A stretch of 64,000 nt of DNA from contig JADCRB010000036.1 of assembly GCA_021464245.1 (NCBI GenBank), positions 4,323,351-4,387,350 of the forward strand, given 5' to 3'. This document shows positions 10,071-59,100 of this stretch, piece by piece. Under the pieces are notes generated by a model. It saw only the letters and a list, made by a program, of their open reading frames with translations. It was not told the DNA's origin and ran no database searches. Position 1 is the first letter of the stretch; every line of letters begins with the position of its first letter. Both the position numbers and the translations under genes were made by a program. Source of the stretch: Carallia brachiata (Eukaryota; Streptophyta; Magnoliopsida; Malpighiales; Rhizophoraceae).

Positions 10071-10179
10071 TGCAATTATTATGCTTTATTGCCTTTGGTT
10101 TTCTTTTCCTTTTTCTGTTCCGCTGAACCATGGTACAATAATCATTACGCAAAATTTTTTTTATTAAAATAAAAATTTT

Positions 10180-12870: not shown

Positions 12871-12994
12871 CAGCTCTGTTTAAATTTTCCGTTTTCTTTA
12901 TATTTGAGAGTCTTGCACATGCTCTTCTCCTCCCATCAACATTTCTCTGTTTCATTGAGCTTCTGCAATTCTTTCGGTTGTGAAAAGCAACCAA

Positions 12995-36118: not shown

Positions 36119-36163
<45 letters not shown>

Positions 36164-39100: not shown

Positions 39101-40281
39101 TTTTGCTTTCATAACATATATATATATATATATATTAGTACAAGTTGTTTTATGCATTGTATGTGAATTTTAAACTATTTGAGTTGCATATCTATATTGT
39201 AAGCAAATTATAGAATTTTTTTGAAATTCAATATTCTCTGTTATATCACTATGATTTTCACTTTTTCTATCACTTTCAATTAGAATTTTAAATTTTGACT
39301 ATATATCATTTTCAACATCCTTATGTGAATAGTCATTGATAATAAGTTAAAAAGATACAAAGCATTGGTTTTGTCTTGCATTCCTGTTTTCTTTCTCTTT
39401 CCATTTAATTTTACCTCATCTTACAAGAGTGTGCGTGATATTTTTAGTCTGTAAAATCCCGTTTCCTTTGTACTTTTGTAGGTAAAATGAGCGTATATGG
39501 TAATTTTACAATATCTAAAAAATAAAAAGTATTTTGTTCAATTTTTTACTTAAGTTATATAAAATTAAAATTAAAACTAGAGAGAGAGAGAGAACCAATA
39601 TAACAACGTCGCATTGGTCCAAGTAAAATAGTCTCAATCTGATAAGTTCCAATCTAGTAAGTGGTCCATGACGCTTAGGTGGAAAAATGAATTCCCCCAA
39701 GGAAGGCCAATAATTATAGATGTTTTTAGTAGCATGAGAGGGCCACCACAATTTTTGGTTTAAGACTTTATTTGACGTATATGGTCTCCACCTGTGGGAG
39801 AAAAATCAAGATGCCTGCGAAATTGACGATAAAAAAGACATCACTGGTTCGAAATTATTTTATTGCAATACGTGGTTGCTGTGTAAATATGAAGGTGCTT
39901 ATGTCTCTATATATCTATATGGCCTTGTTTCCCACAAGATAAATGTCAGATTGAAGTTCTTGCCTAATAGACTCCTACTAACTATAAGCAAACAATTAAA
40001 AATATCTTACAATATTACGTAGAATTATATAAAACAACTTCCTTCGACAATGTTGACTAAAATTCAATTTTAAAGGTAGGCCTACCAATATAACCTGACC
40101 GAAATTTTATACTTTTTTACACTGCTAACTAAAATTAAATTTAATGCTCGGTTTACCCTGATGACCTAGGCAGGATTTTTTCCGCTTGTAACTTTGATAC
40201 GGGTAAACTGACACTAGGTACGATTTTTTCAATAGTAATGGGATGGAAACAATTAATGTAAGTTTACTTTATGTTTGGTAA
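33501..40281. other. Long intergenic region with scattered repeats
   Basis: No gene is supported over ~6.8 kb; all open frames are short and lack recognisable domains. It contains a diverged direct duplication (about 35333-35395 and 35528-35598, sharing 'acaatagttgaaat'-like words), a (TA)n microsatellite at 36122-36161, a shorter TA run at about 39116-39135, and a poly(T) run at about 38912-38926. Remote regulatory sequence cannot be excluded. Confidence 0.5.
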
Positions 40282-40362
40282 AAGCAACGAATTGAGAAAA
40301 GGTAGAAGAAGAAACGAATAGAGAAAAGGTAGAAGAAGCAACGAATTGAGAAAAGGTAGAAG
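40282..40362 (+). repeat. 27-bp minisatellite, three units
   Basis: Three consecutive 27-bp units of the type 'aagcaacgaattgagaaaag' plus 'gtagaag' (40282-40308, 40309-40335, 40336-40362) with only two or three base changes. Non-coding. Confidence 0.9.
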
Positions 40363-40704
40363 CAGTCTAAAAAAATGTCAAAACTAGCTCTTATTTTAGT
40401 ATAATTAGTTAGGATAATTTATTTAAAATTTGTGATATTGTGTCCTGTCCTATTGACTTTATTCTTTTTTTTTTTACTTTACAACTTTTCTTATTGAAAA
40501 AAAAAAAAAGACAACCGAAACCAAATGGAACGTACTAATATCCTTTATTAGGGTATTTGAGTTGGGCAGTATAGCTTAGGACTTTGAGGCTGTAAGAATC
40601 GGATCTATCATAGAACTAAAAAGATTATAGGTTTAAGGTTAAATTAGTTTAACCGATTTAACTGAAATTAAATTGATAAAATTAATATTTAATATAATAT
40701 ATAT

Positions 40705-41752
40705 TGTAAAAGACAAAAAAAAAAAATCAAAGTTCGGCAGATGAAAAAAAAAAAAAAAAGGAAAGAAAACTCAAATGTCAGCTTCTAGAAGTTGAAAAAG
40801 AAAAAAAAAAATCAAAGTTAGGCAGATGAAGAAAAAAAAAAAAGAGGAAAGAAAAATCAAATGTCAGCTTCTAGAAGTTGAAAAAAAAAAAAAAAAAAAA
40901 AAAATCAAAGTTAGGCAGAAGAAGAAAAAAAAAAATCAACGAAAAGTTGGTGGTACAGTGCCTTCTCCTAGCCTATAAATAGGCTCAAAATCTGCAGAGA
41001 AGGGAGGAGCCAATCACAGAAAAGGCGCACAGGAGCTGTGGGGAATTAATTTCAAATTGAAATTACATTTCTCACAACGAAAGAAAGCCTTATAAATAGG
41101 CCCCTACCCCCCAGTTCAAAACACATTCAGCAAATCTGTAAACAGAAAAATCCAGAGAATTTGAGAGAAAAAGAAAATTTTGAAAATCTCTCAAGAAAAT
41201 TTCTCCTTTTCTTACGTGCTGTTACTCTGCAGTATACTCTCCTAACTCCTTTTTGAGAGATTTCAGGGGTAAGCCCCAAAAAATTTGCTGTTTCCATTTC
41301 AAAGTTATTTTTAGGTTTATATTCTCGGATCGCCCTAGATCTGAATTTCTGAGAATATAGATCTAAAAATATCAAATTACTACAAATCCGGCTGGGATTA
41401 AGCCTCATACGGCCCTCAGCAAAATCCAGGCAGTTCATCCGAGAACAAGTCCCTTCGACCCTCGATGAAATTAAGCCAGATCAGCTCAGATCTGGTCTCT
41501 ACGGTCCTTAACCGTAGTCAAAACGTCCAAATCAGATCCGGTTTCAGTCTACCCAGTTCAAGAAAAAGCGTGGAATTATTTCTGTCAAGATCAAGCTCGT
41601 GCAGCCCTTGACGGAGTCAAAAAGGAACACTAATCGGAGGATCTACGGAGATCGACCCCACGTAAATTTTCTTTTATTTTTAAATATTTATTTGTAATTT
41701 ATTTTTGTATTTTTGAGTTTAATTGTTTTAGGCTCGAAATTTACGCTTTACA
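40705..41752 (+). repeat. 5' LTR (1,048 bp) with atypical U3
   Basis: TG...CA ends. The R-U5 part from the TATA box (41091) to 41752 matches the 3' LTR from 50289 to 50954. The U3 part (40705-41090) does not match the 3' LTR. It holds three tandem units, a second TATA box within a palindrome ('agcctataaataggct', 40970-40985), and a 19-bp perfect palindrome (41047-41065). Confidence 0.9.
40726..40940 (+). repeat. Tandem 85-93 bp repeats in the 5' LTR U3
   Basis: Units start at 40726, 40811 and 40904 with 'atcaaagtt.ggcag'. Each of the first two contains 'tcaaatgtcagcttctagaa' and long A runs; the third is cut short. Length differences lie in the A runs. U3 tandem repeats often carry enhancer-type sites, but no factor site is assigned. 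Confidence 0.9.
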
Positions 41753-41778
41753 AATTTTTGGCACGCTCGGTGGGACAA
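41753..41778 (+). other. Primer-binding site of the LTR retrotransposon
   Basis: Directly after the 5' LTR comes 'aatttttggcacgctcggtg' followed by 'ggac'. The TGG followed by 15 or so non-repetitive bases is the usual form of a plant LTR element's tRNA primer site. Which tRNA it pairs with was not determined. Confidence 0.6.
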
Positions 41779-41799
41779 CTTCACCTCCCATCTCTTGTT

Positions 41800-42734
41800 C
41801 CTTAAAAAAAAAAAAAAAAAAAAAGAAAAGAGCCGAAAAGAAAAGAAAAAAAAAAAAAAAAAAAAAAAAGAAAAAGAGCCGAAGAAAAAAAGAAAAAAAA
41901 AAGAAAAAGAAAAAAGAAAAGAAAAAGAAAAAGAAAAAAGAAAAAAAGTAAAAAAGTAAAAAAAAAAAAAGTAAAAAAAAAAAATTTACAGGTGTTCAGC
42001 ACATAAATGGCACCGAAAAGGAGTACAACTGCTGCCACAAAAAGAAGGCAACGGCTCCATTGCCTGCATCAACTACCCTACCTGGGTACGCAGGTCCAGA
42101 AACCCGGGGACGGACACAATTTCTTGCCGTCCAAACCCAAAAAATATCGAAATGGAGAGTCCACAGCTCGCACAACAGGATCTCTCCCCTGACTCTCTTG
42201 CCGCATGGAGGAGTCGATCACCCANGGAGATAAGCATCCAGACTTCCGGAGGCACGGTTCCCATCCAGTTGGACCAGCAAGGGGGCAGAAGGGAGATTAA
42301 GAAACCCAACAGCTCCGGAAAAGGAAAGAAGTGATGACTGTTGAAGCCGCACCAGTAAAAGTGGGCGCCAAAGCTAAGGTAAATCCTCCGACCCAAATAA
42401 CTCAGCCAAAACAACAGGAAAGGCGGAAGGTGACATTGCGAGAGTTGGAGCAGAAGCAGTATCCATTCCCCGACTCAGACGTCCCCGACATCCTTGACCA
42501 ACCTGGAGGCGAAGCTGATCGAACTCCCAGAGTGCAAGCGGCCGAATGAAAAGGATCGAGTCAGCGATCCGAGATTCTGCAAATATCACCGGATAGTAAG
42601 TCATCCAACCGAGAATGTTTCGTCCTGAAGGAGCTAATCATGAAGCTCAAAAGCCAGAATAAAATCATTCTGGACCAGGAAGGCATAACCTCGGCGCAAA
42701 CCAGACCACCATCACTTCAAAACCATCAGAAGAG
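41800..42734 (+). pseudogene. A-rich leader and truncated gag remnant
   Basis: 41803-41990 is an almost pure purine leader. Between 42009 and 42734 only pieces of a gag-like reading frame remain. A short stretch around 42440-42490 (YPFPDSDVPD) and a Cys/His-containing piece near 42570-42640 resemble the C-terminal gag region of this lineage, but they lie in different frames. The N-terminal and capsid portions expected of a full gag (well over 1 kb) are absent. An undetermined base sits at 42225. Confidence 0.6.
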
Positions 42735-44108
42735 GTGACACACCGTAAGGAGGAGCCGCTCGACAACAAAAAGTCGACAACGGAGAAGGTATATGAAGCT
42801 CTCCAAACCCTTATCGCTAACCCTCAGCTGTTTATAGCTTTGCAATCAACAGAAGTGTGGCAAAATCAAGTCAGCAATACTCTCCAGACCTCGGCTGAAT
42901 CTCAGCCATCAAATGATCTAACTCACGGAGCAACAGCGGACCAAAATCACGTCGGATGTTACTCTGCTATCTCATTTTCAGATGAGGATCTCCTGCTGGG
43001 GTCCAAACCCCACAATCGGCCGCTTTATGTATCAGGCTATGTGAGAGAACAGAAGGTCCGACGTATTCTGATCGACGATGGCTCAGCAGTCAATATTATC
43101 CCAAAATCCACCATAAAGGAGCTCGGCATCGGCATTGATGAATTATCAGACAGCCGCTTGATGATTCATGGCTTTAATCAAGGAGGACAGAAAGCAATTG
43201 GGATGATTCGCTTGGAGCTAACTATCGGTAATCTCACTTCTAGCACTCTATTTCACGTGATTGATGCACGTACCACATATAAGATGTTGCTAGGACGACC
43301 ATGGATTCATGGAAATGGAGTTGTGCTCTCAAGCCTGCATCAGTGCTTCAAGTACTACAATGGTGGCGTTCAAAAGGTCAATGCTGACTTAAAGCCGTTC
43401 GATGATGCTGAATCACATTTGGCGGATGCAGTCTTCTACACCGACACAGACAATCCGGAGATCATTCCATCAAAAGCTACTTGGACTGGGGGCATCCACA
43501 AAAAGGGAAAAGCTGTCGAAGAACCTGCCAATGCCCAACCCCAGGCTCCAACAAATGAAAAGCTGCCACAGCCTGCTGAACTTCGTCGAAGGATGTTGCA
43601 TCTTCAAGCTCCACTCCAGTCCTACGCTATGTGCCAGTCACGACGCTCAGAAGGTCAACCCCCTTTCTCTTATTGTATTGATCTTAAACAGGAGCAAGGA
43701 CATAGCCAACCCAAAACAAAGGAGCTGCACAACCTGAAGGAGACTTACACTCTGCCGATACCAAAGATTGAGCCGGTTTTATCTTCAAAACCATTAAAAG
43801 GCTTCGTCAAACCAACACGGGGGCAGTCGAAGGCGGCTCACTTCCAGAAAGAAGAACACATGAAGGATTTGATCCTAATGCATACAAGCTTTTGGCAAAG
43901 GCGGGCTATGACTTTTCAAACCCGAGCACAATGGGTACGCTCCACACATGGCGCCGCTTCTCAAACATCACAGTCCCGACCTGGCTTAGGCTATCAGGAG
44001 AAGTCACCTGTGCGGATCACGCTAAAGAGCCGAAGCCAAGCAGCTGATGCACGTGCCATCACCACCACCACCAAAAGACAGGCTTATCCAGTCAAACAAA
44101 GAAGGTGA
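42735..44108 (+). CDS. Retrotransposon pol, aspartic protease segment
   Basis: A 457-codon open frame with a retropepsin-type domain at roughly residues 90-220. The active-site loop reads IDDGSAVNIIP and a LLGRPWIH flap-end motif follows, as in plant Ty3/gypsy proteases. The remainder is a low-complexity linker towards reverse transcriptase. It overlaps the following RT frame (starting 44047) in a different phase, so a frame change separates protease from RT in this copy. Confidence 0.85.
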   Translation: MTHRKEEPLDNKKSTTEKVYEALQTLIANPQLFIALQSTEVWQNQVSNTLQTSAESQPSNDLTHGATADQNHVGCYSAISFSDEDLLLGSKPHNRPLYVSGYVREQKVRRILIDDGSAVNIIPKSTIKELGIGIDELSDSRLMIHGFNQGGQKAIGMIRLELTIGNLTSSTLFHVIDARTTYKMLLGRPWIHGNGVVLSSLHQCFKYYNGGVQKVNADLKPFDDAESHLADAVFYTDTDNPEIIPSKATWTGGIHKKGKAVEEPANAQPQAPTNEKLPQPAELRRRMLHLQAPLQSYAMCQSRRSEGQPPFSYCIDLKQEQGHSQPKTKELHNLKETYTLPIPKIEPVLSSKPLKGFVKPTRGQSKAAHFQKEEHMKDLILMHTSFWQRRAMTFQTRAQWVRSTHGAASQTSQSRPGLGYQEKSPVRITLKSRSQAADARAITTTTKRQAYPVKQRR

Positions 44109-44787
44109 AGTCAGAGGTTCTGCATTTCATGTCACAATTAGCGAGGAGGCTTCCGACTCATCAGATGGTGAAGTGAAGGAGGCTCCCCCGGAACTTGAAG
44201 ACGGTGGCCAAGCAACTGTTGATGAACTCAAGGAGGTCAATCTTGGCTCTCCGGAAGATCCTCGACCTACATTTGTAAGTGCTTTACTTACTGTAGAAGA
44301 AGAGCAAGAATATGTTCAGGTATTAAGTCAATACAGGGACGTGTTCGCATGGAGTTACAAAGAAATGCCTGGACTTGACCCAAAAATTGCGGTGCATCGT
44401 CTAGCAGTAAAGAAGGGTGTCCGTTCTGTCAAGCAGCCACAACGACGGTTCCGCCCGGAACTCATTCCACAAATCGAGGAGGAGGTGAACAAGCTGATCA
44501 ATGCCGGCTTCATCCGAGAGGTCACCTACCCAACGTGGATTGCCAACATTGTCCCGGTAAGAAAGAAGAATGGACAGTTGAGGGTATGTGTTGATTTTCG
44601 AGATCTTAACAAGGCCTGCCCGAAAGATGACTTTCCGTTGCCCATAACGGAGATCACAGTCGATGCAACAACGGGTCACGAAGCATTGTCTTTCATGGAT
44701 GGTTCTTCAGGCTATAACCAAATCAGAATGGCACCAGAAGACGAGGAGTTGACAGCATTCCGCACCCCAAAAGGTATATACTGCTAA
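44047..44787 (+). pseudogene. Retrotransposon pol, N-terminal reverse transcriptase segment (frame-broken)
   Basis: A 246-codon frame covering a linker and the fingers/palm start of reverse transcriptase (WSYKEMPGLDP, VRKKNGQLRVCVDFRDLN, SFMDGSSGYNQI). It stops at TAA 44785-44787 just after the FRTPKG region. The palm continues in another frame a few bases on, so a small indel breaks RT before its catalytic YVDD box. Confidence 0.9.
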
Positions 44788-44835
44788 AGTTATGCCGTTT
44801 GGATTAAAAATGCTGGCGCCACTTATCAACGTGCT

Positions 44836-46758
44836 ATGCAAAAAATTTTTGATGACATGCTGCACAAGATTGTAGAATGTTATGTTGATGACTTAGTTGT
44901 AAAGACTAAGAAGCGCAAAGACCACCTCGAGGATCTCAAGACAGTGTTCGAAAGACTTCGGAGGCATCAGCTCAAAATGAACCCTCTCAAGTGCGCATTC
45001 GGTGTCACATCAGGAAAGTTTCTTGGGTTCGTGGTGCGCCATCGTGGAATCGAAGTTGATCAGTCAAAGGTTGAGGCAATTCAAAAGATGCCTGAACCTA
45101 AAAACCTGCACGAGCTGCGAAGTCTACAAGGAAAGCTGGCTTACATTCGCCGTTTCATCTCCAATTTAGCTGGGAGATGTCAACCTTTCCATCGGTTGAT
45201 GAAGAAGGATGTCAACTTCGAGTGGGACGAAGCTTGCAGCAAAGCCTTTGAGAGCATAAAGAAGTACCTTTCCAATCCACCAGTAGGAGCTCCAATTCAA
45301 GGAAAGTCGTTGATTCTCTACATTGCAGCGCAGGAAAGATCTTTGGGAGCCTTGCTTGCACAGGAAAACGAGCAGGGAAAGGAAGTTGCCCTGTACTACT
45401 TGAGCAGAACACTAAACGGTCCGGAGCTGAGTTATTCGCCCATTGAAAAGACATGTCTAGCACTGTTCTTTGCCATTGACAAGCTGAGGCACTACATGCA
45501 AGCTCACACGGTACGTCTCATTGCCAGAGCTGATCCTGTCAAATATATCTTATCTAGACCAATCTTGTCAGGACGACTTGCCAAGTGGGCAGTAATCCTA
45601 CAAAGCTACGACATTGTCTACGTGCCTCAAAAAGCAGTCAAAGGACAAGCTCTAGCAGACTTCCTTGCAGATCACCCTATTCCGTCAGATTGGGAGTTCA
45701 CAGATGATCTTCCAGATGAAGAGGTCTTTTACATTGAGACACTGCCACCATGGACGATGTTCTTTGATGGTGCAGCAAGGCGTGATGGTGCTGGTGCCGG
45801 CATAGTGTTTGTCACTCCTCAACGACAAATACTACCATATGCTATCATTCTCGGTGAGTTATGTTCAAATAATGTTGCTGAATACCAGGCTTTGATCATT
45901 GGTCTTCAAATGGCTGTCGATATGAAGATTCCAACTATAGAAGTCCATGGAGATTCCCAGCTCGTCATCAACCAACTTACAGGATTGTATGATGTTAAGA
46001 AAGAGGATCTTGCGCCTTACCATCAACGTGCTCGACAGCTAATGGATGAATTTGAAAGCATCACCTTGGAGCATGTGCCTCGACGAGAAAACACTCAGGC
46101 AGACGCGTTGGCTAACCTGGCCACTTCTCTTGCAAAGTCAGAAATCCAGGCTACAGTTGTTGCCGTATGCCAGAAATGGATAGTGCCACAAAAGGATGAT
46201 GAAGAAACTACAGCAGCCAACGCTGTATCTGTACGTCTCGCGGAGGACGAGGACTGGCGTCAACCAATCATTGACTACCTACAGCACGGGAAGCTGCCCG
46301 AAGATCGTCGTCATAAGACAGAAATTCAACGACGAGCTCCCCGCTTCATATATCTCAAGGATGCTCTGTATCGAAGGTCTTTTGATGGAGTTCTACTTCG
46401 CTGCCTAGCCAATGAAGAGGCAAAACAGGCTCTCACTGAAGCACATTCTGGTGTTTGTGGCGGACATCAATCAGGGCCTAAGTTGCACTTCCAACTCAGA
46501 AGGATGGGATACTACTGGCCAACTATGGTACGTGATTCAATTGAGTTTGCTAAAACCTGTCAAGCTTGTCAATTTCATGCGAATTACATACATCAACCAC
46601 CGGAGCCACTGCATCCAACTGTCTCATCCTGGCCCTTTGAAGCTTGGGGTCTCGACTTAGTGGGGCCCTTGCCAAAGTCATCCCTAGGTCACCTGTACAT
46701 CCTCGCAGCAACCGATACTTCTCAAAATGGGCTGAAGCCATTCCACTTAGAGAGGTAA
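44836..46758 (+). CDS. Retrotransposon pol: RT C-terminal part, RNase H, second RNase H, integrase N-terminal part
   Basis: A 640-codon frame. CYVDDLVVK near residue 15-23 is the RT catalytic box. An LTR-type RNase H follows (LSYSPIEKTCLAL, about residues 205-215). At about residues 305-430 comes a second RNase H of archaeal type with FFDGAARRDGAGAG, NNVAEYQALI, HGDSQLV and ENTQADALA carrying the acidic residues. This duplication is diagnostic for Tat elements. The integrase zinc-binding region (GGHQSGPK, CQACQFH) and the start of the catalytic core (GLDLVGPLP) come last. The frame then breaks inside the core. Confidence 0.92.
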   Translation: MQKIFDDMLHKIVECYVDDLVVKTKKRKDHLEDLKTVFERLRRHQLKMNPLKCAFGVTSGKFLGFVVRHRGIEVDQSKVEAIQKMPEPKNLHELRSLQGKLAYIRRFISNLAGRCQPFHRLMKKDVNFEWDEACSKAFESIKKYLSNPPVGAPIQGKSLILYIAAQERSLGALLAQENEQGKEVALYYLSRTLNGPELSYSPIEKTCLALFFAIDKLRHYMQAHTVRLIARADPVKYILSRPILSGRLAKWAVILQSYDIVYVPQKAVKGQALADFLADHPIPSDWEFTDDLPDEEVFYIETLPPWTMFFDGAARRDGAGAGIVFVTPQRQILPYAIILGELCSNNVAEYQALIIGLQMAVDMKIPTIEVHGDSQLVINQLTGLYDVKKEDLAPYHQRARQLMDEFESITLEHVPRRENTQADALANLATSLAKSEIQATVVAVCQKWIVPQKDDEETTAANAVSVRLAEDEDWRQPIIDYLQHGKLPEDRRHKTEIQRRAPRFIYLKDALYRRSFDGVLLRCLANEEAKQALTEAHSGVCGGHQSGPKLHFQLRRMGYYWPTMVRDSIEFAKTCQACQFHANYIHQPPEPLHPTVSSWPFEAWGLDLVGPLPKSSLGHLYILAATDTSQNGLKPFHLER

Positions 46759-47479
46759 AGAAGGAGCATGTTGCCAATTTCATCCGGACTCAGCTGATCT
46801 ATCGCTATGGAGTCCCTCGATTCATCATCACTGATAATGGTAAGCAGTTCTATAACAGCTTAATTGACAAGCTCTGCGAGAAATTCAAGTTCAAGCAGTA
46901 CAAGTCATCCATGTACAATGCCCCAGCAAATGGCTTGGCTGAAGCATTCAACAAGACCTTATGCAACCTGTTGCGAAGGTAGTCTCTAAATCCAAAAGAG
47001 ATTGGCATGACAGAATTCCGGAGGCATTATGGGCGTATCGTACAACTTACCGGACTCCAACACAGGCGACGCCATACTCACTTGTCTACGGTGTCGAAGC
47101 AATACTGCCGTTGGAAACACAGATTCCATCCCTGCGCATGGCTGTTCTGGAAGGACTCACACAGGAGGAGAATGCTCGCCTACGTCTGGATGAGTTAGAA
47201 GCTCTCGATGAAAGGAGGCTCGAAGCACAACAGCAACTTGAGTGCTACCAAGCCCGGCTCACCAACACGTTCAACCGCAGGGTCCGCCTTCGATCTTTTC
47301 AAGTTGGAGATCTTGTTCTTGCAGTGCGACGGCCCATCAACATGAAGCATCGGCCTGGTGACAAGCTTACTTCCAAATGGGACGGGCCATACTTAGTGCA
47401 GGAGGCCTACACTCACAACGCTTACATGCTGTCAGACCAAGAAGGCGTCCGAATCGGCCCAATCAATGGTAAATTTTGA
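46644..47479 (+). pseudogene. Retrotransposon integrase core and C-terminal part (frame-broken)
   Basis: Two overlapping frames (46644-46982 and 46961-47479) continue integrase. The core region has YGVPRFIITDNG and the downstream Glu region (GLAEAFNK). After another frame change near 46980 come the C-terminal domain with WAYRTTYRTPTQ and a chromatin/DNA-binding tail (VGDLVL...KWDGPYLV). The two frame breaks mean that this copy cannot make one intact integrase. Confidence 0.9.
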
Positions 47480-47494
47480 AACAATATTATGTGT

Positions 47495-47860
47495 AAATAT
47501 GTTTGAAAAAAAAAAAATCAAAAATCAAAAAAGAAAAAATCAAAAAAAAAAAAAAAAAAGAAAGAGAAAAAAAAAATCAAAAAATCAAAAAAAAATCAAA
47601 AAAAAAAAAAAAAAAAAAAAAAAATCAAAAAAAAAAAAAAAAAAAAAGTTCGGAAGTCCCGATCTGAAAGTCCAAGCGAAAACCAAACCCAAAAATCCAA
47701 ACCCAAACACTTGAGCCCAATTCAGAAAACACAAAAACTAAGTCCAAAACCCAAACACTCAACCAAATCCAAAAGTCCAAACCCAAACATCGATCCAAAA
47801 ACCCAAACACAACCCAAATCAATCAAAGCCCAAAACCCAAAAATTCCAAGTTCTAAACAC
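47495..47860 (+). repeat. Low-complexity spacer between pol and the WOX gene
   Basis: 47504-47647 is a run of A with interspersed 'tcaaaa'. 47670-47860 is a degenerate 'ccaaaacccaaac' repeat. It separates the end of pol from the captured gene and codes for nothing recognisable. Confidence 0.85.
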
Positions 47861-48027
47861 AGTCCAGAAACCAGGTTCAAAATCCAATCCAACTCCTGGC
47901 CCGCATGAGTATAAACTGTGAACGGCCCAAAAATATAAAAGCGACGGAGGGTTTGAGTCTGAAACTCAGCATCAGTCTCAATCGATCTTCACCACACACC
48001 AACCTTTGCTCCTCTACCACAAGAAAG

Positions 48028-48639
48028 ATGGAACCAGTTGCAGAACCTCAAGACAAGGGAGAAGAAAGGTCACCCCGCACAAGGTGGCAACCAACCATGG
48101 CGCAACTGCAAATTCTAGAGGAAGTCTTCCACAACAATGGAGGTATTATGCCTAATGCATCTCAGATTTACCAACTTGTCTCACGATTGCGCCCACTCGG
48201 GGCAATCGAAGGAAAAAATGTGTTTTATTGGTTCCAGAATCGGAGAAGCAGGAAGAAACCAGCACTGAGAGCTGATTTTTCCAAAGAACAGTCTGCCGTT
48301 CCGATGGTAGATCCCACCGGTACAACTTCGCCCTCAAATGACGCAGGTCCGAGTTCTACCACTACAATGGTCTCTTCAGACTATAACCATCAAAGCCGTA
48401 GCCCATGGGAGAATGCACGCTGGTCCTGGTGGTCTTACGGAGTCAGCCAAGGGTTCATCCCTCCTAGGTACTTAAGTCTAGGAGGACTTTTTCTAGCAGA
48501 AAGGAGTCATTCCGGCGAAATTTTGCCTCTCTTTCCAGAATGTTCCGGTAGCATCAACCAGCCGGAAAGCGACGTCAACATCATCGACCCACCAGACGAG
48601 GTCGAGCTTGACTTGGAGCTGCGCCTCGGGCCCCGCTAG
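48028..48639 (+). CDS. WUSCHEL-clade homeobox (WOX) protein carried inside the retrotransposon
   Basis: WOX proteins are nuclear plant transcription factors that maintain stem cells and pattern embryos and organs. This frame encodes 203 aa without introns. ATG 48028 (MEPVAEP) is chosen; the frame is open upstream to 47905 but that part is not family-like. The homeodomain is about residues 17-80: TRWQPTMAQL, an NASQIYQL helix 2, and the WOX signature IEGKNVFYWFQN (60-71). RRSRKK follows where WUS proteins usually have H-K-A-R-type residues. A WUS-box (ILPLFPE, 165-171) and a C-terminal EAR-like motif (LDLELRL, 194-200) are both present, as in repressive WUS/WOX5-type members. The gene lies in sense orientation between integrase and the 3' LTR. 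No stop or frameshift is present, unlike gag and pol. Confidence 0.92.
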   Translation: MEPVAEPQDKGEERSPRTRWQPTMAQLQILEEVFHNNGGIMPNASQIYQLVSRLRPLGAIEGKNVFYWFQNRRSRKKPALRADFSKEQSAVPMVDPTGTTSPSNDAGPSSTTTMVSSDYNHQSRSPWENARWSWWSYGVSQGFIPPRYLSLGGLFLAERSHSGEILPLFPECSGSINQPESDVNIIDPPDEVELDLELRLGPR

Positions 48640-49417
48640 GACGGCCGACAAGATAAGGTGCAACGACTTCTGCAGCACACGGCAACGACTTTCGTAACAC
48701 GCGTCAGCCGCTGCCTCTTTTGTCTCTTATGCAGGAAAAGGACGTGGAGGACCCTACTCGATTCTGCGTACCTTCTTTTTGACTTTTCAAAAAAAAAAAA
48801 TAAAAAAATAAAAAAAAATAATAAAAAAAAAATAATAATAATAAAAAAAAAAACCTTTATCGTATGTATATATATCTTGCATGTCCGAGTCATAATACTC
48901 ACCCCTCAGCTCTTCTTTCTCAAAAGAGAATGACTAGTCTCTGCACTTGTCTTAGGAAATTCTTCGATCAAGAAGTTGGAGGCGCACGAGCTAAGAAAAG
49001 AGGGAGTAATCTTTTCGAGGGATCCCTAAAAGCCCTCGAAACTCAGTCTCCAACGCCATCGGTGTCATGGAGTTCAACTACTCTCCTTAGTTCACATCTA
49101 CCACAGAGGGATGAGAAGCTGCAATTATCCTAATCTTTCTTTGGATGCAGCGACGTACAGGGAAGTTCCAACTACTCTCCTTACGTCGAAGCAGACTTGG
49201 AAATCATCACTACAGNGCCCTCGGCCCCGCTAGGACGGCCGACAAGATAAGGTGCAACGACTTCTGCAGCATGCGGCAACGACTTCCGCAGCACACGGCA
49301 ACGACTTCTGCCACACACACGGTAACGACTTTCGTGACACGCGTCAGCCGCTGCCTCTTTTGTCTCTTATGCAGGAAAGGGACGTGGATGACCCTGCGTA
49401 CCTTCTTTATGACTTTT

Positions 49418-49454
<37 letters not shown>

Positions 49455-49789
49455 TTATGTTATGTATATATCCTGCATGTCCGAGCCATAATACTCACCC
49501 CTCAGCTCTTCTTTCTCAAAAGAAAATGGCTAGTCTCTGCACTTGTCTCAGGAAATTCTTCGATCAAGAAGTTGGAGGCGCACGAGTTAAGAAAAGAAGG
49601 AGTAGTCTTCCTCGAGGGATCCCTAACGCCATCGGTGTCATGGAGTTCCAACTACTCTCCTTAGTTCACAACTACCACAGAGGGATGAGACGCTGCAATC
49701 ATCCTAATCTTTCTTTGGATGCGGCGACGTATAGGGAAGTTCCAACTACTCTCCTTACGTCGAAGCAGACTTGGAAATCATCACTACAG
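48622..49789 (+). repeat. ~590-bp tandem duplication downstream of the WOX stop codon
   Basis: Copy 1 is 48622-49215 and copy 2 is 49217-49789, with an undetermined base (49216) at the junction. Both run from the last WOX codons ('ccccgctaggacggccgaca') to 'aaatcatcactacag'. Copy 1 has an imperfect A/T-rich run where copy 2 has pure A. Copy 2 has four 22-24 bp units of 'gcaacgacttctgcagcaca' type (49253-49345) where copy 1 has two. No convincing protein is encoded. Confidence 0.9.
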
Positions 49790-50130
49790 TCGTCTCTCTG
49801 TGCGCAGGTCTTAAAGTTCCAAAGTGCTGGGCCTTCCTCTTGGGGAGGTTCAAGTTCTTTGCCTACCGGATCATCCTCACCAGAGCTCTGGAACTTTAAG
49901 AGATATAAAAAATCCTTTGCGGGCTATGGAAGCTCGAACGCACCTGGAGCCAAGACTTCAATTTTTATATTGGCTGGGGTGCTAACTTTCTCAAGATCGT
50001 ATCGGGTTCCTATTGTGATCCAACAACAGCAGGCATAGTCGGAGATAGAAGATTTCAACATTCAACTTCAACCTGGACTTCAAGACTCGGATCGGATCAC
50101 GACCACAAAGTTCTTCCTTACCGACCCTTG

Positions 50131-50143
50131 AAGTGGGGGCATT
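50131..50143 (+). other. Polypurine tract of the LTR retrotransposon
   Basis: 'aagtgggggcatt' lies immediately before the TG of the 3' LTR, where the plus-strand primer for LTR elements sits. Confidence 0.75.
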
Positions 50144-50189
50144 TGTAAACAAAGAAAAAAAAAAAAAAAAAGAATTCGTTGAATTCAAT

Positions 50190-50226
50190 GGCCGGCGTTG
50201 CCAATTCAAAATTGGCAACGCCGGCC
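50190..50226. promoter_or_regulatory. Perfect 17-bp inverted repeat in the 3' LTR U3
   Basis: Arms 'ggccggcgttgccaatt' (50190-50206) and its exact reverse complement (50210-50226), with a 3-base spacer, ~60 bp before the TATA box. It can form a hairpin or cruciform, or bind a dimeric factor. It is not present in the 5' LTR. The function is inferred only from position. Confidence 0.9.
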
Positions 50227-50250
50227 AAAGAAATTTTTTTAAAGAAAAGA

Positions 50251-50296
50251 TTCCTTTCCCATATGATGTTCACATGGGAAAGGAACCCTATAAATA
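50251..50296 (+). promoter_or_regulatory. 12-bp inverted repeat and TATA box of the 3' LTR
   Basis: Arms 'ttcctttcccat' (50251-50262) and its exact complement (50274-50285), spacer 11 bases, end directly before TATAAATA (50289-50296). Sequence similarity between the two LTRs begins exactly at this TATA box. Confidence 0.85.
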
Positions 50297-50984
50297 GGCC
50301 CCTGCCCCCCATTTCAAAAGACATTCAGCAAATCTGTAAATAGAAAAATCCAGAGAATTTGAGAGAAAAAGAAAATTTTGAAAATCTCTCAAGAAAATTT
50401 CTCCTTTTCTTACGTGCTTTTACTCTGCAGTATAATCTCCTAACTCCTTTTTGAGAGATATTTCAGGGGTAAGGCCCAAAAAATTTGCTGTTTCCATTTC
50501 CAAAGTTATTTTTAGATTTATATTTTCCGATCGCCCTAGATCTGAATTTATGATATAAATCTGAAAATATCAAATTACTACAAATCCAGCTGGGATTAAG
50601 CCTCAAACGGCCCTCAGTAAAGTCCAGGCAGCTCATCCGAGAACAAGTCCCTTCGACCCTCGGTGAAATTAAGCCAGATCGGCTCAGATTAGGTCTCTGC
50701 GGTTCTTAATCGTAGTCAAAACGTCCAAATCAGATCCGGTTTCAGTCTACCCAGTTCAAGAAAAATCTGTGAAATTTATTTCTGTCAAGATCAAGCTCGT
50801 GCAACCCTTGACGGAGTCAAAAAAGGAACACTAATCGGAGGATCTACGGAGATCGACCCCACGTAAATTTTCTTTTATTTTTAAAATATTTATTTGTAAT
50901 TTATTTTTGTATTTTCGAGTTTAATTGTTTTAGGCTCGAAATTTACGCTTTACAAATATTTTTAGGGAAAAATTAGGAGAATAT

Positions 50985-51560
50985 CGAAAATAGTTAAAGA
51001 ATTGGCATAGGTAATAGAAAACATTTTTTAACAAAATAAATTTTGAAAAAAAAAATGAAATCAAGGTTAAGGATAATACTAAGTATATTTAGGTTAATAT
51101 TAAGTATATCTAGACTTTAGTTAAAAATTGTATTTTTTAGAGGTTAAATTCATTCATATGACTACTCTACGACTATTTCCTATATCCTCTTAGTGAGATT
51201 CTATTTTTTTTTATTTCATATTTATTATTTTTAATCATTTTTTTGTATGAGTTTAACACCCTTATTTGTTACTAGAGTTTCCGACGAAAAAATCTCATTG
51301 AAATTAAAATTAATGTCAAAATTTTTCTATCTAAAGATCGAATTACTTCATTTATTCACTTGATTTTTTTATCCATCTTATACTAATTTTTAGAAAATTC
51401 ATTTCTATCACTAATAGAAAAAAAAAAGATTTTTGTCATTATAAATTACAAAACAACAAGTTATAAAACAAAGCATTCTATGATAAAAAGGAGATTTTAT
51501 TAATTTTTTGTATTATTTGAATATGATAACTTGGTGTGTTACAACACACAAAATCTATTT
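50985..51560 (+). repeat. Dispersed repeat Z, copy 2
   Basis: Collinear with 55210-55935 ('cataggtaatagaaaa', 'gtatgagtttaacaccctta', 'ctatctaaagatcgaattac', 'gatttttgtcattataaatt'). It lies close behind the 3' LTR. It is uninterrupted here, whereas the other copy carries a MITE. Family not identified; no terminal structure is clear. Confidence 0.8.
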
Positions 51561-54500
51561 TATCATTTATTTTTCAAGTGAATTCTATTTATTTTATGAT
51601 TTAAGATCATAAAAAATAAATCAAGTGAGAAATTCTCGTTTGATCCCTCCACCACAAAGCATTGGTGTGCCTCTCCGTTAGGGCATGATTGGAGTTGTCA
51701 TCCCAAGAGTTGTCATCCTAATTTTTCTTACCTACGGAATGGGGTCCGTTCCACGTGATTTCAGAACAAGCCAACTTCTGCTGCATTGCAACCAAACGGT
51801 TATAATGTGAGATCATGGATGATGATATTGTAATACATGAATTCACGTCTGATTCACATTAACATATCCTCATCTACATAATATTGTTCTAAAATTGATC
51901 ATGCTAATAATCAGTCAGCTCCATATTCTTAAGGTCTATTTTTTGAGAACTTAGTAAAAATATTTAAACTTAGCAAAAACGTTTACAAATGTCTTACAAC
52001 AAAGATGAAACGAAAAAAAAAAAGGCTTATACTAGTTACCGCATTGTTCACATCATTTTTATACGTTGACCAGCCTAAAGCTGCCATGGACGATGTCCAA
52101 ATACCATATGCAATTAACAGTTACTACTACGTCCTACAAAGACCCTCATGGTTACCACCGAAATCAGTGGCTTAGTGGTAATTTGGAGATTATCTACTCT
52201 CTATAATTTAAATTCGAGTCTCTTCACATGCGTTAGTCCCAATTTTTTGGGATTAATATTTAGAGTGCTCCATTAAGTTTTAAACTCATTAATACCATAA
52301 TCGGTTGTGAGGAAGATTCTCTTAAACCTATCAGTGTTTCGGTGATGGATATATTCTTACGGTGATAGTTTAATGAACTTTTTAAATGAGAATTTCTCTA
52401 AATTTGACTCACAGATATAATGAATGACATACCTGTAATTATATCTTTTTCTTGGTTTAAAAAGAAAAAAACCCTCATAGTTTTTGTTTAAGAAAAAAAA
52501 AGGACCTGATACATACATATATAGATAATTTTTTACCCTTTTTATTTCTTGTAAAAGCAAAACGCACTGATAAAAAAAAAAAAAGGGTACACACAAGTTC
52601 ATAACGTCAAAAGTGTAATTACTCTGTAATTAGCGAAAATTATATCAAGAAACGCATAGAAAAGAGGATAAATTAATTAAAAGTTAAGGAACATGAACTT
52701 GTGCAGGGCAAATCTCAACTATGTACTCAAATTTAAGCAATGCTGCATTTGATGGTCTACCTTTAACCAGGTCTACCTTAAGATACCCACTACAAAAAAA
52801 AAAAGCCAAAAGAATTGAGAAAGGCAATATTTTAGGGAATCAAGCAGACACAGTACTACGATGCATTAAATTGTGGACAAGAGAAGCATTATATAAACCT
52901 GGCAGTCTTCTTACAGGAGTAAAAATGCCATTAATTCTTTCTTTGCCTCGGCTGTTGCTGGCTAAATTACCAATTTACCATGTCCTTTTTGCCTGATATT
53001 CCCTTCTCTCTCTCTCTGTTTTTTTTTAATAGCAATTAGGGGTAAATTTGTTACTCCAGAATTGCACTGCAAAAGCACAATATACAGATTCATAATTAAG
53101 CAAGAGATAGCAAAAGCTATTTTTGTGTTGGGGTTCATCCCAAAATCCCAACATTTTGTACGTACTGAAAAATGAAGGCCTTTTTATTGAAAAGCCCTGG
53201 TAATTTTGTCGACTTTTAAATTCAAACTATGCACTTCATTTGTTTTAACTTAATTTCTTTTAACATGACAACCATACCATTTATAGCTGTGATCGATCTG
53301 CATAGTATACCTAGGCAAACAAAATAGAATAGGTATTTTAACAATACAAAGGAAAAACAAAAGGCTTATGGGTATATTATATATGCTTTTTTCCCCTTTT
53401 AAAAGAAAATTTAAGAGTAATTTTTTCTTTTTTTTAAAGAAAATAAAAAGAATAGTTTGGGAGAGTTTTGTTTTTCCTTTTTAAGAAAAATAATTGAATT
53501 TGAGAGAAATTATTTTTTTTCCTTTCCAAAAAAAAAATTGGATTAGTTCATCTTCTTTCCTTCTTTTTTAAGAAAACAAAACTTGAAAAATTTGTGAGTT
53601 CTTTTCTTTTTGACCTTTTGTTTAGAAAAAAAAGGGAAAATTTAGGAGTGTCCAGTTACTCCACTTGTTGATCATAAATCAAGTACGAGTGTATTGAGTT
53701 ATAAAGAAAAGAGCATTTTTTGATACGACGAAATTTTAGTTTTAACCATTTAAAAAAGTAACTTATAATATTATATGATTTCAATAATAAAAAGACAATT
53801 AATACAAAAGACGATTTGCACAATCTTTTATTTACATTAAAGACAAAAATTATTATAACATTAGAGCAAATATTTCGAGCTCCAGACCAATTAATACATT
53901 TTAAACCCTTTTTTGTTTTTCGGTCATCAGTACATTATTTTTAACTTCTGGCTTCTCTCGGTGTGCTACACATTCCAAGTATCTGAAAGGTTGGGGGCGT
54001 TTTCGTCACACCCTGTTATCTTAAAAGCCAAAATTTGGTAGGGGTGCAATGGTTATGATTGTTATTTAACTACTTCACTTACCTACAGTGTGATATGCGA
54101 AATTATTTAATATGTTCGTATTATTTTTTAAAATTTATATAATTATTTTTTCAAAAAATTAAAGTGCAATCAAAATATTCAAAAAATTTTAAAAAATATT
54201 AAAAATATGAAGTATGATCTAAAAAAAAAAAAAAAACGTAACATGAAGTAAAAGAGCTAGTGGAGTGTGAGAAATATACTTAATAGGGGTTTTGGGCCAA
54301 AGGCCCTCCAATTTATATAACTGAGAGGAGCACTCAACTTGTCAGTCCACTTAACGAACAAAAAAATTACTCGGTAAAATTTGTATGTGTGAGGTAATGT
54401 AATGGGTCGATTTTTACATAAAAAAATAGTAGATAAAAATCAATAAATTGTCAAAAGTTGTGAGTAAAATTAATCTTTATTGTTATATAACTGGTTTTGT

Positions 54501-55190
54501 ATGATTAGGCATCGAACACCCATGTTAACCGGAAAAAAAAAAAAAAATTAGGCAATGAATTATCTTCCTCAACAAAAGCTGGAGCGGGAACGACAATAGC
54601 CTGCAGGTTGGTGCACGCAAAGGTCTATTCTTGTAAATAAATAGGTCTCGCTTCCTAAATAGCTATGAAATAAATATTATTAATTGTGCTATGAGAGTTA
54701 GGAATCTGTAAATTAAAATTAAGCAATTTCCAAGTAAAATTTATTTTCTTTCCCATCTCGTTCCCGATTAAGTAATTGCTCAGCTATTTGTTACATATGA
54801 TAAACCTAATCTTTTTCTTATCAGAATGATAAAACATAATTTAAATAACGTGATATCGTCTATATAGTATGTACAGAGATTATTGATAACTTATGTGTCA
54901 AGGACAGGATGGAACCCAACTTCCCAGACGTGATGCAACCCAAAATAAAAATCCAAAGAGAAAAGTTTGGTACCCCACACACCTTTTTTTTTTTTCTATA
55001 GTTTAGGGGTTAGGTATTTTATTTAGAGTTTAGATTATAGATTTTAGAGTAATATTTATTTAAAGTTAGGTTTTAATTTTGAAAAATGATAATAATAATA
55101 ATAATAAAATATTAGATTAGAGTATGACTCTAGGCCAAATCTATATATGTTCTTCCCTACAAAACAAAAAACTAATATCTTTTAATAAAA
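51561..55190. other. Intergenic, no gene recognised
   Basis: AT-rich DNA. One 91-codon frame at 52721-52996 has no recognisable domain and no supporting features. 53390-53640 is a run of alternating A- and T-rich tracts. No RNA gene is recognised. Confidence 0.45.
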
Positions 55191-55194
55191 GATT

Positions 55195-55935
55195 ACGAGG
55201 ATATAAAAAAATAATTATAGAGTTGACATAGGTAATAGAAAATATTTTTTAGCCCAAAAGATAAAAAAAAAAAAGAAATCAGGGTTAAGGGTAATATTAA
55301 GTACATTTAGTGTAATATTAAGTATATTTAAAATTTAATTTTTTTTGAAAAAATATTTTTCGGAGGCTAAACTCATTCATATAACTATTCTATGACTATT
55401 TCTTATATGAGTGCAATTACGTATCCCGGGATTTTTGTCCCGAGATTTTGTGCCGAATGAAACCGCAGCTGTTATTTTTAAAATTACGACTGATATTTTT
55501 GAAATGTAAAAATAACAACTGATTCAAAAATATCAGTTCTAGTTTCAAAAATAACAGTCCCAGTTTCATTCGGCACATAATTCGGCACAAAAACCACCGG
55601 CCCACCAACATTTATTCTTCTTATATTCTCCTAATGAGACTTTATTTTTTATTTCATATTTACTATTTTTACTCATTTTTTTTTGTATGAGTTTAACACC
55701 CTTATTCGTTACTAGAGTTTCTAATGAAAAAAAACTCATTGAAATAAAAAACTAATGTCAAAACTTTTCTATCTAAAGATCGAATTACTTCATTTATTCA
55801 CTGGATTTTTTTATCCATTTTATATTAATTTCTAGAAAATTCATTTCTGTCACTAATAAAAAAAAGATTTTTGTCATTATAAATTGTAAAACAAGAAATT
55901 ATAAAACATAGCATTTTATGATAAAAAAGTTATTT
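55195..55935 (+). repeat. Dispersed repeat Z, copy 3, split by a MITE
   Basis: Matches 50985-51560 on both sides of an inserted 209-bp MITE (55409-55617). With the insert and one 9-bp duplication removed, the two flanks are continuous in the other copy. It lies just upstream of the ABCG gene. Confidence 0.8.
55409..55617. mobile_element. 209-bp Mutator-type fold-back MITE with perfect 9-bp target duplication
   Basis: 'ttcttatat' flanks both sides (55400-55408, 55618-55626). The empty site is visible in repeat Z copy 2. Nearly the entire element is a long imperfect inverted repeat: 'tgtgccgaatgaaac' at 55450-55464 pairs with 'gtttcattcggcaca' at 55562-55576, and 'ctgttatttt' and 'ctgatatttttgaa' also occur in both arms. 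A 9-bp duplication suits the Mutator superfamily. Confidence 0.9.
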
Positions 55936-56017
55936 GAACATGATAACTGAAGAAGTTGTTCATTCTCTGTCAACCCAGGCCAGTACGTAGCTGCAATTTG
56001 GTATGCAAAATGTTTTA

Positions 56018-56149: not shown

Positions 56150-59100
56150 ACGGAGGGTAGTGCTTCGTTCAAAATAAGCAGTGCGAGGAACAGCAGCTTG
56201 AAAGCTTTCTCAATGTCCTCTCGTCATGCAGAAGACGATGAAGAAGCACTCATATGGGCTGCCCTGGAGAAATTGCCCACTTATTCGCGCATAAGGAGAG
56301 GCATTCTCAATGACAAAGAGGGTCAGTCAAGAGAGATTGATATTGAGAGCCTCGGTTCAACGGAGAGAAGGAATTTGCTGGAGAGGCTCGTCAGGATTCC
56401 AGAGGAAGATCACGAGAACTTCTTGTTGAAGCTCAGGAACCGCATTGACAGGTACCTCTAAATTAACTGCAGCTAACAAATCAATAAAACTTTTTTAGAT
56501 ACATGTCTGAAGTTCTTTTGTTTGTATGTTTTTTTCTTTTTTTTTGGAAACTTACAATACAGCGTTGGACTGGAGATTCCAAGCATCGAAGTTCGTTTTG
56601 AGCATCTAAATGTCGAAGCAGAAGCTTATGTTGGAAGCAGAGCATTACCTACGATGTTCAACTTCTCTGTTAACATGCTTGAGGCATAAAATTTACTTCT
56701 TTTATAGATGACATATGCTATATATACTCAGCCAAAAGTATTATAGGCAACTCATTTACTCATCTATGCTGACTTTTGCAATAGGGATTTTTGAATTATC
56801 TTCACATACTTCCAAGTAGGAAGAAACCATTCCCAATTCTTCATGATGTTAGCGGAATTATCAAGCCCAGAAGGTAAGTAGAAGTAGAAGTAATATCTTG
56901 GTCCTATTTGTACATAAAAACTGATGAGTCCTCAGATTTGTTCTTTTCTCACTCAGTTAGTACAAAATTTGTAGAATGACTCTACTTTTGGGCCCCCCGA
57001 GCTCAGGCAAGACCACCTTACTATTGGCTCTGGCTGGAAAACTGGCTAAGGATCTGAAGGTGAGGAGACAAATTCTAGTCTTTCTGCAGAATCGAATTGG
57101 CTTCGATTTTAGTGTTGTCTGATATTGGTAGTCTTGAAAATTTTCAGTTTTCAGGAAAAGTTACATATAACGGTCATGGAATGGACGAGTTTGTACCACA
57201 GAGGTCATCGGCCTATATTAGCCAATATGATCTTCATATAGGAGAAATGACTGTGAGAGAAACACTGGCTTTCTCTGCGAGATGTCAAGGAGTTGGAACC
57301 CGTTATGGTTAGTGGCCATAAGAAAAACATTGATGATATGATATAATCGTTAGTTGAGTAACTGCAGTCGATTTTGGTTTAAGTTTCTGTAAAAATGTGA
57401 AATCCTGCAGATATGTTGGCAGAGTTGTCAAGAAGGGAGAAGGCGGCAAATATCAAGCCAGACCCTGACATTGATGTGTACATGAAGGTGAGAAAGACAC
57501 TCGCAGAGCAGATATATCTACAACAGCCCACAGATCATCATTAATTATCGTTAGAAAAACATATTTAAATTTTAGTTGCAATTCTACAGGCAGCAGCACT
57601 GGAAGAGCAGGAGGCCAATGTGGTTACAGATTATATTCTCAAGGTATCGACCTGAAATTCAATTAGGCCAATGACCTTTGGGAAAAATTAAGAGAAAAAT
57701 GCAGATGTCTAACCTTTCTGGTTTAAAAATTTCACAGATCTTAGGACTTGAAGTATGTGCTGATGTTCTGGTGGGCGATGAAATGATAAGAGGTATCTCT
57801 GGTGGACAGAGGAAGCGACTTACAACAGGTAAATTTGACCATAAATGATGCCATGATAATTCAAACATTGAATCGGTCGCCATATAATTTTGCATATCTT
57901 ATAATTTGCACCATGCAGCGGAGATGCTGGTTGGACCGGCAAGAGCGCTTTTCATGGATGAGATATCAACTGGTTTGGATAGTTCGACAACATACCAAAT
58001 AGTGAACTCGCTCAGGCAATCAATCCACATTCTCAGCGGAACTGCTCTAATATCTCTGCTGCAGCCGGCACCAGAAACATATGAACTCTTTGATGATTTG
58101 ATCCTTCTGTCGGATGGGCAAATTGTATACCAAGGTCCACGAGAAAATGTAGTAGAGTTCTTTGAACACATGGGTTTCAAATGCCCTGAGAGAAAAGGAG
58201 TTGCCGACTTCTTACAAGAAGTAAACCTTTTACTCATACATGCTGCAATGTTTCTTCAGTTGCTTTTGTATATGCATGATCTGTCAATCTTCCAAACCTA
58301 TAAACTAGATGACAAGCCAACTTTTTTTCGTTTTGGAATGCAACAGGTAACATCAAGGAAAGATCAAGAGCAGTACTGGGCTAACAAAGATGAGCCTTAT
58401 AGCTTTGTTTCCGTGACGGAATTTGCGGAAGCATTTCAATCATTCCATATCGGTCAAAGGCTAAGAGATGAACTTGCCATGCCATTTGACAAGGCCAAAG
58501 GACACCCTGCTGCTCTAACAACCAAGAAGTATGGTGCCAGCATGAAGGAGCTCTTCAAGGCCTGCACTTCACGAGAATTTTTACTCATGAAGAGAAATTC
58601 ATTTGTCTATTTTTAAACTATTCCAAGTGAGTTTAATCCCTTTTTTTCTCTTTGATGGAAAGACCCAAATTAGATGCAAGACTGAATAAGTTAGTGACCT
58701 AAAACAAGATAATATATGTGGAAATGCTAAAAGAGGCATTAATTTTTGGTTTTGGTTTTCTTATTTTCAGCTTATTCATTACCGCTTTGATCACAATGAC
58801 CGTGTTTTTAAGAACCGAGATGCATCATAGGACAGTGGATGATGGTGGGATATATGTTGGTGCACTGTTCTATTCAATCATGTTGCCATGTTCAATGGCT
58901 TCTCAGAGCTTGCCATGTCCATTATGAAACTTCCTGTCTTCTACAAGCAAAGAGACTTTCTCTTCTATCCTTCATGGGCATATGCTCTCCCCACATGGAT
59001 TCTCAAGATCCCAATCACCATCGTAGAAAGTGCCATTTGGGTGATCATGACTTACTATGTCATAGGGTTTGATCCAAACATTGGAAGGTGGGATAAATGG

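Follow-up and report, generated by a model that had tools for sequence, protein, structure and literature searches.

Plant long terminal repeat (LTR) retrotransposons that carry extra genes have been described, and the roles of nearly all of these genes are unclear. A screen of 121 angiosperm genomes reported 15 extra domains in LTR elements, those named including PMD, G-patch, AIR1, DUF1409, YgdH/LONELY GUY, L26, B3, ArgoL2 and an AlkB-type domain (PMC9289625; this and the other papers are cited from the available part of their text). The closest cases are a 25-kb Gypsy element of Phalaenopsis that encodes an AlkB-type m6A demethylase, elements of Citrus that contain a YgdH/LONELY GUY domain (both PMC9289625), and maize Bs1 and other elements with transduced host genes (PMC7264820). 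Here we describe an LTR retrotransposon in a window of 64,000 nucleotides from Carallia brachiata (GenBank assembly GCA_021464245.1, contig JADCRB010000036.1, positions 4,323,351 to 4,387,350 of the forward strand), which carries at 48028–48639 of the window a WOX homeobox gene whose motifs support its placement in the WUSCHEL (WUS) clade. As in Phalaenopsis, one plant group has a Gypsy lineage in which a host-type gene is fixed, but this gene encodes a developmental regulator and not an RNA-modifying enzyme; as in Citrus, the gene is of a kind linked to growth, which in the Citrus elements is an enzyme tied to cytokinin rather than a transcription factor. Like Bs1, it is a host gene within an LTR element, yet it occurs here in hundreds of copies, with signs of selection. 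LTR elements that maintain a host-type gene are thus known, while this sort of gene is, as far as our literature searches reach, unprecedented. In contrast to most extra genes of such elements, the biochemistry of WOX proteins is well worked out.

Among plant retrotransposons, a second RNase H (aRH) marks the Tat lineage, and its location between RNase H and integrase is that of the angiosperm Ogre and Retand branches (PMC6317226). In the element described here, the second RNase H (RVT_3, E = 1.1e-24, at 310–429) is located between RNase H and integrase, and from this domain order we assign the element to the Tat lineage of the Ty3/gypsy LTR retrotransposons. It also shares with Ogre and Retand the presence of an extra gene between pol and the 3' LTR, and its LTR of 811 bp is within the range of 315–1,194 given for Retand (PMC11963269). 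It differs in that the extra gene is a homeobox gene in sense orientation; in the available part of the Retand study, all but two of the recently active clusters have an antisense TRP28 frame, and the sense frames encode no known domain (PMC11963269). As no minus-strand frame of at least 120 amino acids is present within 36000–56000, and an antisense TRP28 frame is therefore absent, we do not file the element as Retand.

The gene is an intronless frame on the plus strand, running from ATG to TAG, open in the window copy and encoding 203 amino acids. A preliminary description, made from the letters of the window, had recognized in it a homeodomain, a WUS-box and an EAR-like end; translation, Pfam and sequences of the Protein Data Bank (PDB) bear this out. 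The homeodomain (48076–48276) is matched by PF00046 over residues 17–77 with an E-value of 2.2e-12. Against PDB sequences, the best match is WUSCHEL (E = 2.9e-18, residues 16–80), followed by STENOFOLIA (5.9e-16), with no third match passing 0.001. AlphaFold, using a thin alignment of eight sequences, predicts helices at residues 24–36, 44–57 and 62–75 in a confident homeodomain, while most of the remainder is below a predicted local confidence (pLDDT) of 60; the mean over the model is 60. The WUS-box, for which the consensus is TLxLFP, is located at 48520–48540 and reads ILPLFPE; ILPLFP is found in the window and in copy L081, and TLPLFP in seven of the nine open copies aligned. The EAR-like motif LDLEL (48607–48621) is part of a C-terminal LDLELRL. 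A C-terminal EAR-like motif is typical of WUS and WOX5/7, and the WUS-box and EAR motifs recruit TOPLESS-type co-repressors.

When aligned with seven WUS-type proteins, four of which bear the name WUSCHEL, the element protein shows 39 invariant columns. These include R19, W20, K63, N64, Y67, Q70, N71 and R75 of the homeodomain, the LPLFP core of the WUS-box and, within the EAR-like end, leucines L194 and L196. Across the nine open element copies, this core and the EAR-like leucines are likewise invariant. WUS contacts bases through R38, Q89, N90 and R94 and the DNA backbone through K82, N83 and Y86, with lesser backbone contacts made by K92, R96 and R100 (PMC7203112). By our own reading of the aligned sequences, R38, K82, N83, Y86, Q89, N90 and R94 correspond to R19, K63, N64, Y67, Q70, N71 and R75 of the element protein, all seven being kept. 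The base-contacting residues, the WUS-box and the C-terminal EAR-like motif together support membership of the WUS clade. The order of WUS-box and EAR-like motif, and one extra homeodomain residue present in the host WUS, are shared as well. The element gene is set apart from the clade by its length of 203 amino acids, its lack of introns, a homeodomain identity to host WUS of about 48% and its location on a retrotransposon; its helix 3 continues RRSRKK or RRHRET, as opposed to HKARERQ in the WUS clade.

Copies were searched for in the 337.5-Mb assembly itself. With the WOX protein as query there are at least 150 scored places, the best of 2284 first-look candidates; these are 86–100% identical and nearly all full length, and by a hand count 103 are free of internal stops, which excludes a chance origin of the frame. 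Twenty-three of them (hand count) share a single score of 410.6 bits at 92%, a sign of what may be a recent burst. A 38-nucleotide homeobox-core pattern with up to three mismatches occurs at 781 places, 368 forward and 413 reverse, while the reversed control gives none. Both searches select for the WOX gene. A further sample was selected by pol alone, from which 69 of 4105 candidates were scored and the best 30 fetched, the window among them. In 29 of these 30 (window included), pol is followed by the beginning of the WOX gene together with the 150 bp that precede it; the fetched stretches stop inside the WOX gene, making its start the visible part. The remaining copy, L075 (C145), has a pol 96% identical to that of the window, and in its fetched stretch neither WOX start nor upstream block; this may reflect a loss or an ancestral form. 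The WOX gene has thus multiplied along with the element, and its position is the same in almost every copy sampled.

Six copies had their ends fetched. LTR pairs are present in four, with identities of 99.0% (383 bp), 98.0% (403 bp), 95.2% (441 bp) and 91.9% (579 bp), and none was found within the fetched stretches of the other two. On C132, the copy with WOX locus L003 and an open frame has LTRs 98.0% alike over 403 bp, the start of a primer-binding site (PBS) after its 5' LTR and a 5-bp target duplication, GGGGG, flanking TG..CA; LTR, WOX gene and second LTR were therefore transposed as a single unit, in agreement with the mobility proposed in the preliminary description. The flanks of the copy on C73, with LTRs 91.9% alike, do not match. 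On the same C132 (G000:C132:1211769-1215855), two WOX copies of one strand are separated by about 3.5 kb and may form a tandem element array sharing an LTR. That the WOX locus might be a host gene with unrelated elements inserted on either side, a doubt raised in the preliminary description itself, is an idea with next to no probability left: the truncated 5' LTR of the window copy, its start replaced by other sequence, is what speaks for it, and it is refuted by the gene being in place in 29 of 30 pol-picked copies, by the 781 pattern places and by the target duplication around another complete copy. Nor do the LTRs belong to different elements, given the matching pair and target duplication on C132, and the frame is far from being confined to one copy, as hundreds more were found.

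Selection was analyzed in both samples. Neutral values for the ratio of nonsynonymous to synonymous differences per site (pN/pS) were derived from the mutation spectrum of flanking non-coding columns and amount to 0.76 (codons 1–60), 0.71 (homeodomain) and 0.73 (C-terminal part); a yardstick of 1 was rejected on the basis of this spectrum. After dropping L075 and copies with near-identical pol, 20 of the 30 pol-picked copies were left, some with WOX frameshifts. Their WOX pN/pS is 0.37 for codons 1–60 and 0.23 for codons 1–33, against 0.32 for the C-terminal part of integrase and 0.16 for reverse transcriptase (RT)/RNase H. Upon removal of seven copies with the second gene type (see below) or a frameshift, the 13 first-type copies give 0.34 for codons 1–60. 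Resampling of copies gives 0.24–0.52 for these codons, below 0.756 in 300 of 300 cases, with the true spread underestimated as the copies are related; for the two shifted frames the values are 0.54 and 2.56. Constraint thus acts on the first third of the gene, at about the level of the integrase C-terminal part, and the selection test proposed in the preliminary description comes out as purifying selection on the N-terminal third. The gene-picked alignment contains 29 rows (the window, L002–L008 and L018–L038), or 28 after L025 was dropped as truncated. In nine open copies pN/pS is 0.46 for the whole gene, 0.16 for the homeodomain and 0.66 for the part that follows it, with frame-shift controls of 0.72 and 1.92, and in 19 broken copies it is 0.44, 0.21 and 0.52, respectively; the homeodomain values are biased low, these copies having been chosen by that domain, which counts against resting the case on them.

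The DNA preceding the gene is also conserved. A block at 47898–47968 (+) contains TATAAAA at 47934, 94 bp 5' of the WOX ATG and immediately preceded by GGCCCA; genes active in dividing plant cells commonly have GGCCCA/TGGGCC motifs in their promoters. Among pol-picked copies, the mean pairwise divergence of the block is 2.6% (29 copies) or 3.8% (20 de-duplicated copies), while that of the spacer at 47660–47877 is 12–14%, or 14.2% in the 20 de-duplicated copies; in 300 of 300 resamplings of these 20, the block is the less divergent. In the gene-picked copies, 47898–47967 diverges by 2.6%, versus 19.7% for the preceding spacer and 9–11% 3' of the gene, and TATAAAA is retained in 28 of 29 rows. 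The block containing the TATA sequence is among the most conserved parts examined. We consider it fairly likely to be a core promoter followed by a short leader, a putative 5' untranslated region at 47969–48027 (+) with 5.1–5.7% divergence, so that the WOX gene would have a promoter of its own. Host WOX upstream DNA was considered as the origin of the block and rejected, since the matches listed for the 150 bp 5' of the ATG are of 16 and 15 nucleotides.

Three pol-picked copies (L054, L063 and L080) have a second WOX type at the gene start. The full second type is seen in L081 (C92; the same copy as L054), as an open frame of 203 codons, 81% identical to the window protein. The differences begin at residue 35 and extend through helix 3; codons 1–33 of the two types, A and B, differ by five synonymous changes and no amino-acid changes. 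Over the whole comparison, the proportion of synonymous differences (pS) is 0.20 and pN/pS is 0.51. In spite of its second-type gene, L054 has a pol 99.4% identical to that of the window, implying either reassortment between gene types and pol or a faster change of the gene than of pol. Over 406 pairs, the distance in pol and that at the gene start correlate at 0.75.

From these observations the WOX gene is very probably a selected resident gene of the element. Describing it as cargo, as had been done, is correct in that the gene is carried, but understates the case, as both the gene and the preceding block are under constraint. We regard it as probable that this is an accessory gene for a transcription factor, resident on a Tat-type element and equipped with a core promoter of its own. 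Several observations weigh against this. Seven of the 29 pol-picked gene starts contain a frameshift or stop (L052, L055, L059, L070, L073, L074 and L079) and two have no ATG (L068 and L072), all judged by eye, and 19 of the 28 gene-picked copies are broken. The +1 shifted-frame control of the pol-picked set is close above the upper resampling bound. Codons 84–203 have a pN/pS of 0.52–0.66, modestly below the neutral value, so constraint on the C-terminal part as a whole is weak at most. The contrast in divergence between integrase and WOX gene among gene-picked copies may in part be due to recombination between element lineages. The row lacking the TATA core is L023. With regard to DNA binding, two of the lesser backbone contacts of WUS, K92 and R96, are replaced by R73 and K77 in the element protein (the third, R100, is kept), the second WOX type differs in helix 3 and has F in place of Y67, and the LTRs contain no significant excess of WUS sites.

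A history and a mechanism may be proposed. A Tat-lineage element would have acquired a WUS-clade homeobox gene and retained it as a resident accessory gene. The protein would be translated from its own short mRNA, separate from the full genomic RNA, since the upstream block appears to be a core promoter. Less surely, it would enter the nucleus, bind WUS-type sites and recruit TOPLESS-type co-repressors via WUS-box and EAR-like motif; retention of the contact residues, the WUS-box and the EAR-like end agrees with a DNA-binding regulator of this sort. Host cells would thereby be kept in, or shifted to, an undifferentiated, dividing state in lineages that produce gametes, and new insertions would be inherited. 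Such an action on the state of the host cell is the mechanism we prefer, tentatively and at somewhat less than an even chance. The fuller version, in which a self-promoted WUSCHEL-class factor, diversified into two or more DNA-binding types while pol is almost identical, serves the element to keep host cells in an undifferentiated state, or to drive them into it, and thereby into the germ line, is a little more doubtful still.

The protein might instead act chiefly on the LTR or an internal promoter of the element itself, tuning its transcription to meristem cells. Retroviral accessory regulators of transcription offer an analogy. DNA-binding accessory proteins have been proposed for other plant elements, in the available text for TRP28 of Retand (PMC11963269). 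The 3' LTR contains 14 TGAA cores where 9.2 are expected; however, 9% of shuffles reach this excess, which is not significant, and of five parts scanned, none contains the tandem TGAATGAA and every one has fewer TAAT cores than expected. The lack of significant enrichment speaks mildly against self-regulation, which we regard as unlikely. Slightly less credit is due to a decoy function, in which the protein would bind TOPLESS-type co-repressors through its WUS-box and EAR-like motif, draw them off and so relieve repression of the element or of nearby genes: all nine open copies aligned agree in LPLFP and in the EAR-like leucines, but the strongest constraint is in the homeodomain and not in the C-terminal part, and a decoy has no need of DNA-contact residues. 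That the gene is a captured passenger, hitch-hiking without function, is very improbable. The many broken copies and weak constraint behind the homeodomain agree with it, while the pol-picked pN/pS is well under neutral, the upstream block is conserved and types A and B, at a pS of about 0.2, both retain open frames.

As to the origin of the gene, the assembly also contains ordinary host WOX genes. The host WUS (L009), in a predicted gene model, has by our reading three exons and two introns, and its best-scoring relatives are two Erythroxylum proteins at 64–66%. The element homeodomain is 47.8% identical to that of host WUS and 48.5% to that of host WOX3; the extra residue common to element gene and host WUS is absent from the seven other host WOX proteins aligned. 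In trees of 11 homeodomains, which hold no WOX of other clades, the element gene is on a long branch (1.2–1.6) and WOX3 groups with it at a support of 47/0. The approximately unbiased test gives p-values (p-AU) for grouping the element gene of 0.195 with WUS, 0.12 with WOX2, 0.10 with WOX4, 0.064 with WOX5 and 0.42 with WOX1. The tree that had been proposed for identifying the donor therefore does not place it, as neither WUS nor any other host WOX is rejected. Two database searches were made, with 120 matches listed of 423 and 120 of 341. Among the matches listed, most that are named are WUSCHEL, no other numbered WOX name occurs and none exceeds 53% identity in another plant; such searches miss merged gene models beyond the length limits, and genes of transposable elements are often masked before annotation. 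A search of viral contigs gave one pattern match and no relative. With an intronless gene, an extra residue shared with WUS and database matches named WUSCHEL, the simplest history would be the capture of a spliced WUS-type mRNA. The preliminary description had suggested capture of a spliced host mRNA; the introns of host WUS and their absence from the element gene are consistent with this putative route. The long branch suggests an old capture, and fast change after capture would look alike.

In the literature covered, no precedent was met with. The string 'homeo' is absent from the main text (supplements being outside this scope) of PMC9289625, PMC11963269, PMC7264820, PMC6317226 and PMC12786077. 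In its available part, PMC6317226 counts extra frames of at least 250 codons only, so that a gene of 203 codons falls below its threshold. Searches on WOX, homeobox or homeodomain together with retrotransposons gave, among the papers listed, no description of a WOX gene in a retrotransposon by title or start of abstract, subscription papers being mostly outside their reach, and a search directed at the Rhizophoraceae found nothing. With a well-understood gene class, an apparent promoter, hundreds of copies and selection, the access of plant retrotransposons to the germ line becomes directly testable. If the preferred mechanism is true, a retrotransposon with its own stem-cell regulator would be a plant counterpart to viruses carrying cell-fate genes. 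In this plant group, hundreds of element-borne WOX genes can also mislead WOX surveys, annotation of masked genomes and RNA-seq mapping.

The other parts of the element, all on the plus strand, are in agreement with its assignment. The 5' LTR (41079–41752) is truncated and 93.75% identical to the 3' LTR (41079–41759 versus 50278–50961), and a PBS-like stretch starting with TGG (41759–41776), 6 bp past the LTR end, is found whole or by its start in four copies. A frame at 42735–44108 has a weak aspartic-protease match (Asp_protease_2, E = 0.0015, below the curated cut-off). The first part of RT is at 44047–44787 (RVT_1, E = 3.5e-8), where pol is interrupted; the domain search locates the remainder of RT, RNase H, the second RNase H (aRH-like, RVT_3) and the zinc-binding domain of integrase in 44836–46758. 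The C-terminal part of integrase follows at 46961–47479 (SH3_Tf2-1, E = 4.7e-4, below the curated cut-off), then the WOX gene, in sense orientation relative to pol and between integrase and 3' LTR, as first described. While pol of the window copy is split over several separate frames, the WOX frame is open. A polypurine tract (50131–50143) precedes the 3' LTR (50144–50954), which is bounded by TG..CA and was delimited by sequence and by comparison with other copies. Of the bounded element with PBS and polypurine tract that had been described, the 3' LTR, the polypurine tract and the PBS-like TGG thus hold, but the TG at 40705 is unsupported as a start. About 130 bp at the start of the 5' LTR are missing or replaced, and for this part the 5' LTRs of other copies have a counterpart in the window solely in its 3' LTR; since the 5' LTR of the C73 copy matches the 3' LTR of the window almost from its start, this is an apparent defect of the window copy. 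The region before the truncated LTR (40705–41078) is A-rich and internally repeated, has its own TATAAATAGG and is perhaps a piece of another LTR. Behind the WOX gene, the window contains a tandem duplication of about 600 bp (48660–49215 and 49298–49789) with an undetermined base at the junction; in other copies with the 3' end fetched, the 3' LTR is nearer to the WOX gene.

Elsewhere in the window, UDP-glycosyltransferase genes are found at 8214–18040, including a tandem pair about 89% alike (8214–10119 and 12748–14652), frames with ankyrin repeats and a PGG domain at 28040–32544, and frames with ABC transporter domain matches at 57906–60905. Another pair of repeats, 87% alike, is located 3' of the element, at 51177–51497 and 55618–55935.
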